Shown here: piece after piece, positions 296 through 64,000 of the stretch
Layout of the letters: every line of letters starts with the position of its first letter
Numbering within the stretch: the stretch's first letter is position 1
Source of the DNA: Bacteroidales bacterium
GTDB taxonomy: Bacteria; Bacteroidota; Bacteroidia; Bacteroidales; GCA-2748055
Assembly (NCBI GenBank): GCA_029210585.1
Contig: JARGFP010000022.1
Span: 1-64,000 of the forward strand
Direction of reading: 5' to 3'
DNA length: 64,000 nt
The notes under the pieces: model-generated
What the model was told of the DNA's origin: nothing
Databases searched by the model: none
Seen by the model: the letters and a program-made list of their open reading frames with translations, nothing else
Made by a program: the position numbers and the translations under genes

Positions 296-759
296 TGCGG
301 GAATCCAGGATATATGACCAGTCCGGGATAATAATGCCTGAAGAGCATTTCAAAAGCTGTTTTATCACCTTCTGAAAGCCTTAGTATCAATTGACGCTCT
401 TCTATGCCATTAATAAGATTCATACATCATTAAGTAGTGGTTCTTCACCATCAAAGTCCCTTTCTCAGAACATAAAAGTAAGGAATTCAATAGTGATTTG
501 CTTAAAGCGTAAAAAATATATTGATCCGAATACTGGAAACAACCGAGACGCTGACCACCCGGTACCGGAATCCTGATCCCAATGCAGGTATCAATTGTTC
601 AATATGATATGTAGGTCGATAAAAACCGGCCTGGCATGGTCAATTAGCCCGTTTTTTCCAATTCTGAGGTCGGTCGCTGAGTCTTGACATGATCTGGTAC
701 CAGGTATAGTCGATTTACTTTCATTTTAAAAAGTCTGAATTATTTCGTATTTTTGATAC
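296..759. other. Intergenic stretch with no convincing gene
   Basis: This 464-bp stretch separates the transposase fragment from the antitoxin gene. The only open frames are short and have no recognisable composition or start context. It presumably contains the right end of the insertion sequence, but no inverted repeat partner is in the window. Near its right end lies the promoter candidate at 748-755. Confidence 0.5.
748..755 (+). promoter_or_regulatory. Candidate Bacteroidetes -7 element (TATTTTTG) for the antitoxin gene
   Basis: TATTTTTG matches the Bacteroidetes -7 consensus TAnnTTTG. It ends five bases before the ATG at 760, so transcription would begin at or next to the start codon and the mRNA would be nearly leaderless. 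No clear -33 element is seen upstream, so confidence is moderate. Confidence 0.4.
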
Positions 760-894
760 ATGAAAACTCGGCCCGTAAAGAGATTATCAGACAAGGAGAT
801 TATTGCCCATTCAATACAATCGGCGGAGATTGAAGGCATCTATTTAAAGGATAAGGATAAGGAAAAACTTGTTGAGGCTCTAAAGAAAGTTTAA
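760..894 (+). CDS. VbhA-like Fic antitoxin, 44 aa
   Basis: This short ORF starts at ATG 760 and stops at TAA 892-894. It contains SAEIEG at residues 21-26, which fits the Fic-inhibitory motif (S/T)xxx(E/D)G. The motif sits in a predicted helix (LSDKEIIAHSIQSAEIEG), followed by a charged second helix (DKDKEKLVEALKKV). This is the two-part layout of VbhA, the separate antitoxin of class I Fic proteins, whose glutamate blocks ATP gamma-phosphate binding in the Fic active site. It faces the Fic gene on the opposite strand and the two stop codons overlap within TTAA (891-894). Known VbhA/VbhT pairs are, as far as I know, co-oriented with the antitoxin first, so this arrangement is odd. The call rests on the motif and the neighbour; no database search was possible. 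Confidence 0.7.
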   Translation: MKTRPVKRLSDKEIIAHSIQSAEIEGIYLKDKDKEKLVEALKKV

Positions 895-1502
895 AGTAAT
901 TCTCCTAATATCGAAATCATAGGCTCATAGTTCAGATTGTCTCCCTCATTAAGGGCATCGATATACCGATCATAATATTTCCGACTGAAATTTTCAAGTT
1001 TTATTTCTCCAAAGCCGGCTCTAAGGCTAATTAGATTGGCAAAAATACGTGCAGTTCTGCCATTCCCTTCTCTGAATGGATGTATATGAATAAGCTCAAC
1101 ATGTGTTTTAGCAAGGTCGATAATCAAATCTTCCTTTGAACTGTAATCCGCCGGCAAGTTTACCAGGTATTCTTTTTCATAATAACTCATTGCAGTATTT
1201 ATATGAGAAACTGGAAAAAAGTTGTGACCTGCTTTGGAGAGGTCAACTTTTCGATACATACCTGCGAAATAATATAGATGCTCCAATGCCATTTTATGAA
1301 TACTGCAAATGTAATCAGATGTAAATGAGGTAAATTTCGTTAACTCATCTGCAAAACTCCTGTAAGCCTTAGTAAAGCCGATCGTTTCCTGCACCTGGAT
1401 TTCATATTCATCAGTAATATCCAATTTGTTTCTTAAAACAGAAGTTCCAACCTCGGTATAATTACCTCTATAATCTGGTATGTCATATTCCCGCTTCTTC
1501 AT
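891..1502 (-). CDS. fic: Fic-family protein adenylyltransferase
   Basis: A 203-residue Fic-domain protein. Fic enzymes usually transfer AMP from ATP to a hydroxyl side chain of a target protein. The complete signature HPFREGNGRTAR is at residues 141-152, with catalytic His141, the Mg-binding Glu145 and the ATP-binding Gly/Asn/Arg residues, so the enzyme should be active. A flap-like segment (HNFFPVSHI) precedes it near residue 93. No inhibitory (S/T)xxx(E/D)G helix is evident in this protein, which fits a class I Fic regulated by a separate antitoxin, here the 44-aa ORF at 760-894. An in-frame extension upstream runs into the tRNA-Cys at 1639-1708 and is not credible, so I start at the ATG of MKKREYDIPDYRG. 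The downstream TAA overlaps the antitoxin stop. Confidence 0.9.
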   Translation of the reverse strand: MKKREYDIPDYRGNYTEVGTSVLRNKLDITDEYEIQVQETIGFTKAYRSFADELTKFTSFTSDYICSIHKMALEHLYYFAGMYRKVDLSKAGHNFFPVSHINTAMSYYEKEYLVNLPADYSSKEDLIIDLAKTHVELIHIHPFREGNGRTARIFANLISLRAGFGEIKLENFSRKYYDRYIDALNEGDNLNYEPMISILGELL

Positions 1503-1638
1503 GATATCCTTAAAGGTACTAATATCGAAACAGAATAACCAGAAGATACTTTTATAACACTCAAAAGAGGTAAGTTTCAGGTGTCTAAAAAGAAAATCGC
1601 TAAAATTCTTTATATATGAATAATAGCGATTTAAGTGA

Positions 1639-63897: not shown

Positions 63898-64000
63898 CAG
63901 ACCAATGTGAATTTAAATAAGAACATACTCCACATTCTTCAGCAAGATTAAGCAAACTATCATAATAATTGATTTCATTCACATATTCAGGACTTCCTAT
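63898..64000 (-). pseudogene. Upstream part of a gene split by the insertion sequence (runs off the window)
   Basis: On the minus strand the frame is open from the window edge to the element and reads GSPEYVNEINYYDSLLNLAE then ECGVCSYLNSHWS. It continues in frame into 61914-61853 if the element is removed. The start lies outside the window, and I do not recognise the protein. Confidence 0.6.

Follow-up and report, generated by a model that had tools for sequence, protein, structure and literature searches.

A probable Fic toxin–antitoxin pair in convergent layout from a Bacteroidales bacterium, with a probably leaderless antitoxin mRNA, among related pairs of the same layout

Introduction

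Placing the antitoxin gene first in an operon is widely held to help maintain an excess of antitoxin. The antitoxins of class I Fic toxins are described in this way, as upstream genes of one operon, in the available text of two studies (PMC3667792, PMC5033356). In VbhA/VbhT of Bartonella schoenbuchensis (3SHG, 3ZC7, 3ZCB) the antitoxin gene lies upstream in a single operon, and the EcFicA/EcFicT pair of E. coli (YhfG/Fic), a class I Fic with a small motif-bearing antitoxin, has its antitoxin upstream and co-oriented (PMC5033356, available text). The fic-1 and antF genes of the Pseudomonas fluorescens Fic-1/AntF pair (8WT0) appear to share one promoter, according to the available part of PMC7479194. 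Protein B of the mobile mystery proteins A/B is also a Fic-family protein; protein A is encoded upstream and co-oriented, and the one locus read held no partner with an inhibitory motif.

A different order has been reported for FicY/AntY of Yersinia pseudotuberculosis, where the small inhibitor, with the motif STAIET, is encoded convergently and expressed from an independent promoter, as is the toxin, and where AntY inhibits FicY in vitro in a dose-dependent manner (PMC7479194, whose available text calls the pair ‘convergent’ twice and ‘divergently’ arranged once). Here we describe a pair of this kind at the left end of a stretch of DNA from a Bacteroidales bacterium, the window, which is cut from a contig of 72,332 bases and runs from its first base to base 64,000. 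The novelty of layout implied by an initial annotation of this DNA does not hold, since FicY/AntY is already convergent with independent promoters, and the layout is therefore not new in kind. A search of the literature, mostly open-access, found nothing on a convergent Fic lineage, on its spread in Bacteroidota or on a leaderless Fic antitoxin, and it is these three, not found in print, that are presented as new here.

Methods

A Fic search covered 198 genomes of the window's order, and larger sets of genomes were searched with two profiles built from convergent Fic proteins, A1 (two rows) and A3 (12 rows); some genomes fell into more than one search. Fic trees were built from 67 and from 69 rows, the smaller omitting L118 and the phage locus L117 (branch 4.73). 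Near-copies (L005, L012, L031, L045, L065, L072, L073) were removed by hand before both trees. Fragments shorter than 140 aa (L061, L067, L088) were excluded, as were L006, L033, L039, L042, L044, L046, L074, L075, L083, L091, L092, L096, L097, L100, L107, L108 and L109, and other omissions were refetches of the same gene. Rows labelled co-oriented carried the motif in the upstream ORF in 17 of 21 cases; L101, L102 and L105 were so labelled by an upstream small gene without the strict motif, and L103 by the ‘antitoxin VbhA family protein’ of its record.

A -7 promoter element was scored when five or all six of its fixed letters matched, and L027, L029, L030, L031, L034, L062, L083, L091, L092, L115 and L116 were left out of the count. 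In the chance control, a comparable ORF was a convergent, abutting ORF of 38–100 aa with the motif outside the gene. Ratios of pN/pS were calculated on the antitoxin frames of eight relatives, with the last eight codons omitted.

Results and Discussion

The elements of the locus are as follows.

748 to 755, plus strand: Bacteroidota -7 promoter element TATTTTTG, a match to TAnnTTTG, spanning -12 to -5 as numbered from the antitoxin ATG (from sequence and position statistics).
760 to 894, plus strand: putative 44-aa antitoxin ORF (FicA-like) with the motif S21-A-E-I-E25-G26 (from the ORF, convergent relatives and selection in relatives).
891 to 894, no strand assigned: TTAA common to both stop codons, a 4-nt coding overlap (from sequence).
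891 to 1502, minus strand: 203-aa Fic protein (FicT) with HPFREGNGRTAR as residues 141–152 (from Pfam Fic, 5e-18, and structural matches to VbhT and other Fic proteins).
1511 to 1518, minus strand: -7-like element TACCTTTA, matching at 5 of 6 letters and spanning -16 to -9 as numbered from the fic ATG (from sequence).

The two ORFs stand tail-to-tail, the fic stop (TTA, 891–893) and the antitoxin stop (TAA, 892–894) sharing TTAA, and an in-frame TGA at 754–756 makes ATG 760 the first usable start of the smaller one, which reads MKTRP...SAEIEG...LKKV. SAEIEG fits the inhibitory motif (S/T)xxxE(G/N). The two ORFs, the motif and the shared stop letters were read correctly in the initial annotation, which had also called the small protein VbhA-like; that label is not supported, for a search of the 44-aa ORF gave no match to Pfam VbhA (PF18495), nor any to NCBIfam or PDB entries, its only Pfam hit being unrelated and weak (0.14). 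Upstream of fic, at a distance of 134 bases and on its strand, lies a tRNA-Cys gene (1637–1708). The contig end carries a C-terminal fragment of an IS1634-family transposase (2–295; 44 bits against a model cut-off of 100).

The larger ORF is the sole Fic match in its genome, scoring 66.2 bits against Pfam Fic (cut-off 24), and its Fic motif, HxFx(D/E)GNGRxxR, is complete. No (S/T)xxx(E/D)(G/N) inhibitory motif occurs anywhere in its 203 residues; as in class I Fic proteins, the motif is carried by a separate ORF. A model built from five sequences had a mean pLDDT of 70.3, with residues 1–22 and 78–96 below 50, and was closest to VbhT (Z 15.6, rmsd 3.8, 171 residues aligned), other Fic proteins coming next; three VbhT entries head the ranking at Z 15.0–15.6, where differences below 1 are ties with Bep proteins. 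Taken together, these results support a Fic protein of class I type, accompanied by a small convergent partner that carries the motif.

The locus has the fold and the inhibitory motif in common with VbhA/VbhT, from which it differs in that its genes converge, rather than following the antitoxin-first operon order, and in that its antitoxin lacks a Pfam VbhA match. The solved EcFicA/EcFicT complex is likewise among the structural matches of the Fic model, but that pair is co-oriented, and the two antitoxins have no sequence match to each other. Fic-1/AntF, likewise of class I, is the best PDB sequence match of the window Fic (8.4e-13), and the mobile mystery protein B family (TIGR02613) is matched below its cut-off. 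Closest in layout is FicY/AntY, which, as described in the available part of PMC7479194, also pairs a class I Fic with a small inhibitor on a convergent ORF downstream of fic; it is gammaproteobacterial and carries STAIET, whereas the motif of the window pair is SAEIEG and its promoter is of the leaderless type of Bacteroidota.

Whether this layout recurs was read from the neighbours of related fic genes, because the 44-aa protein is too short a query: used alone on the 198 genomes of the order, it returned the window and two weak matches only, and these (L008, L009) proved to lie inside larger unrelated ORFs. The Fic search of the same genomes gave five matches including the window, the best relative (L003, 41% identical) having a convergent small ORF with SFRIEG that overlaps the fic end. 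Because both profiles were built from convergent Fic proteins, the following counts should not be read as prevalences for Fic proteins in general. With A1, 30 of 395 genomes of the phylum matched and all 30 loci were read; 20 were convergent (the window, L015–L031, L034 and L038) and 10 had the antitoxin upstream and co-oriented (L032, L033, L035–L037, L039–L043). With A3, 27 of 395 genomes of the class matched, 21 convergent and 6 co-oriented; all 16 matches among 128 genomes of the order of genome G558 had a convergent partner, cut by the contig end in L092; and 5 of 98 genomes of the class of genome G299 matched, 3 convergent, 1 co-oriented and 1 unclear (L097). Six loci without a partner under the strict motif rule (L027, L029, L030, L031, L034, L062) yielded one in a positional listing. 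Conservation of the ORF beside fic genes, on which the initial annotation had staked its reading, is thus borne out, for example in 20 of 30 and 21 of 27 genomes.

Convergent pairs are also found on Pontibacter and Hymenobacter plasmids, further named Bacteroidota, and outside the phylum, where the partner overlaps fic by 4 nt in Proteus mirabilis (L014) and E. coli (L047, L107, L108), lies 14 nt away with the motif SSAIET in Marinomonas (L110), and is convergent in Citrobacter (L111, L119) and Aeromonas (L112) as well. Partners of the STAIET/STAVET type occur in Proteus, E. coli, Citrobacter and Aeromonas. Of 5426 E. coli genomes, 12 contain 80% or more of the query, and the pair of the three loci read lies between ygbA and restriction-system genes, possibly a defence-island setting. 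A Salmonella phage, FSLSP004, carries an unannotated convergent antitoxin-like ORF (L117, 1950–2147; SFSLEG) that overlaps the phage fic by 4 nt. Viral contigs otherwise gave no relative in a single-protein scan and, with A3, one distant locus (L109) at which no partner was seen. A search of genome contigs with A1 gave four loci. L048 proved to be an IS region rather than a Fic locus. Small genes upstream of and co-oriented with fic were found in Acinetobacter, Providencia, Rhodococcus, Roseibium, Acidovorax, Photobacterium and Parageobacillus.

In the 67-row Fic tree a single branch (support 100/99) divides 46 convergent from 21 co-oriented rows, none of the latter having a convergent motif ORF. 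This split was present in all 200 bootstrap trees used, though the tree program warned that long branches meet at the divide. The 69-row tree requires two changes of layout because of L118, a mobile mystery protein B on a long branch without a motif partner. Within the related toxin pairs examined, the convergent layout thus appears to mark a whole branch, in a tree that is unrooted as to the age of the layouts and drawn from a sample chosen by similarity to convergent Fic proteins. The gammaproteobacterial rows with STAIET-type partners fall on the convergent side, and from these we infer that FicY, whose inhibitor carries STAIET in the available text of PMC7479194, is kin to this lineage.

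In Flavobacterium johnsoniae the -7 element spans positions -12 to -5 ahead of the site where transcription starts (PMC6847099, available text). Four bases (756–759) separate TATTTTTG from ATG 760 in the window, and the predicted transcription start of the antitoxin is the A of that ATG; no TTTG or TTG occurs at the -33 position. Of 37 distinct antitoxins from Bacteroidota, 17 carry an element exactly at -12, seven of them in perfect form, and counted by sequence cluster the figure is 10 of 22, no other offset between -50 and -8 exceeding 4 of 37. The same position is occupied at 9 of 31 fic starts (among them a few of uncertain placement, in truncated frames), at 2 of 50 starts of the other genes in these loci and at none of 31 ORFs of the window. 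Fisher tests gave 3e-6 for the sequences, an optimistic value given their relatedness, 5e-5 for the clusters and 0.002 for fic. Two observations count against a leaderless start: the window has no -33 element, and 20 of the 37 antitoxins carry nothing of the kind at -12, although in four the perfect element stands somewhat further upstream, at -15 to -17. The group with SSKIEGH has no element at -12 and some at -26 to -40. For the co-oriented antitoxins with SNMFEG the start taken is an internal ATG, so that no promoter comparison comes from that group. The convergent antitoxin of E. coli has a Shine-Dalgarno-like AGGAG instead.

The conserved position of the element at -12 thus makes a leaderless mRNA probable for the antitoxin across much of the clade and for the toxin in some members. 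Such an antitoxin mRNA has probably been kept in a portion of the convergent clade, and in the window its first base is most likely the A of the AUG; the position of TACCTTTA would give the fic mRNA a leader of about 4 nt. The initial annotation had proposed both separate promoters and a leaderless antitoxin mRNA, and both are supported, the second by the conserved position of the element (17 of 37 antitoxins versus 2 of 50 other genes); its distance of five bases to the ATG holds when the G at -5 is included. Leaderless mRNAs account for 5.5% in Flavobacterium psychrophilum (PMC9723704), and leaders under 10 nt for about 3.7% in Bacteroides thetaiotaomicron (PMC7366714). As such mRNAs are rare in the Bacteroidota that have been mapped, a family that seems to keep one offers a handle on their purpose.

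We consider it highly probable that the locus is a type II FicT/FicA module in which a class I Fic and its antitoxin are arranged convergently and read from two inward-facing promoters. Binding, target, toxicity and transcription starts at the window locus we infer as follows. By analogy with FicY and VbhT, the window Fic would be an AMP-transferase toxin that AMPylates a type II topoisomerase subunit, probably GyrB and/or ParE to judge from characterised class I relatives. The 44-aa protein would bind Fic such that Glu25 of its inhibitory helix pairs with Arg152, the second Arg of the Fic motif, a pairing that would block productive ATP binding. Two inward-facing promoters, giving a leaderless antitoxin mRNA and a toxin mRNA with a leader of some 4 nt, would take the place of the operon; with the genes read from two promoters, the dose ratio would be set by promoter strength and protein stability. 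An operon-free Fic lineage would be a natural test of how the ratio of toxin to antitoxin is kept.

Control at such a locus might involve more than protein inhibition, if transcription of the antitoxin also damped fic through antisense pairing or collision of RNA polymerases. The genes overlap by 4–117 nt in 45 of 47 convergent rows, the two exceptions being L027, with a 3-nt gap, and L110, with a 14-nt gap. A scan of 560–1640 found no terminator-like site, so the two transcripts may overlap beyond the four coding bases; the view that the mRNAs are complementary only at their 3' ends agrees with the coding overlap, but its ‘only’ is weakened. The scan used a simple consensus, however, and close convergent genes also arise without regulatory reason, such that we regard this hybrid control as possible but doubtful. 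Somewhat more speculative still is a fuller version, in which a deep Fic branch has dispensed with the operon in favour of two inward-facing, leaderless or near-leaderless units overlapping at their ends, the antitoxin acting twice over, once as a protein inhibitor and once through a transcript that damps fic by antisense pairing or collision, and leaderless translation sustaining the antitoxin when ordinary initiation fails.

Decay is a further consideration. Interrupted toxin frames stand beside a readable antitoxin frame in seven convergent genomes (G229, G366, G431, G457, G856, G925, G955; loci L022, L026, L028, L061, L087, L088, L091) and two co-oriented ones (G295, G321), which is the bias that a toxin harmful on its own would produce, although draft assemblies may contribute. 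The window Fic itself is a long branch (1.2) without a close relative, its highest identity being 46%. These observations, and the IS1634 transposase fragment that the contig end adjoins, would suit a decayed or domesticated remnant, inactive as a toxin module, beside an IS fragment and a tRNA gene; both frames are intact, however, with the Fic motif complete and the promoter element in place, and we think this improbable.

That the small ORF is spurious, a chance frame opposite the 3' end of fic with a lucky motif, is hardly credible: it has only 44 codons and no database match, and 18 of 5000 mononucleotide shuffles of 591–890 yield such an ORF, but its relatives share place, strand and motif (37% identity to the antitoxin of L003; 14–27% in a 15-row alignment), pN/pS is 0.13–0.45 in all 28 pairs from the eight relatives, which indicates purifying selection, and a counterpart is annotated as a gene in records of E. 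coli, Citrobacter, Pontibacter, Hymenobacter and Marinomonas. Among 183 non-Fic genes from the window and the fetched loci, only one had a comparable ORF, and with the shuffles and the recurrence in relatives this marks the arrangement as more than a chance one. In annotated convergent records the partner is a ‘hypothetical protein’ or is unannotated, so such Fic proteins can pass for orphans.

In the 15-row alignment of the antitoxins, whose rows were originally picked by motif, M1, S21, E25 and G26 are invariant; since most partners were selected in this way, conservation of the motif is partly circular. Listed by position without demand for a motif, the antitoxins end it in G, N, T, E or A, and three (L030, L031, L034) have Asn at the Ser/Thr position, leaving only the Glu constant across everything read. 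A model of the 44-aa antitoxin from three sequences (mean pLDDT 75.9, pTM 0.38) has helices at 11–25 and 31–43, with the inhibitory motif at the end of the first. Pfam VbhA is matched by 1 of 15 convergent antitoxins, weakly (0.17), and passed by one co-oriented relative (1.2e-6), and 3 of the 15 match Pfam Fic_N, all below cut-off (best 0.012). In class II Fic proteins the inhibitory helix lies in Fic_N. A second convergent subgroup (L063–L067, L069, L038, L115, L116, L027, L029–L031, L034, L062) has the antitoxin motif (S/T/N)Mx(L/I)E(N/E/T/A/G) and mostly a K/RxYPxLxE-type N-terminus.

Beyond the tRNA-Cys gene lies a second tRNA-Cys-like sequence (1790–1903), not called by ARAGORN, with a G+C-rich insertion of about 43 bases in its T arm; a 20-base piece of this insertion occurs once in the genome.
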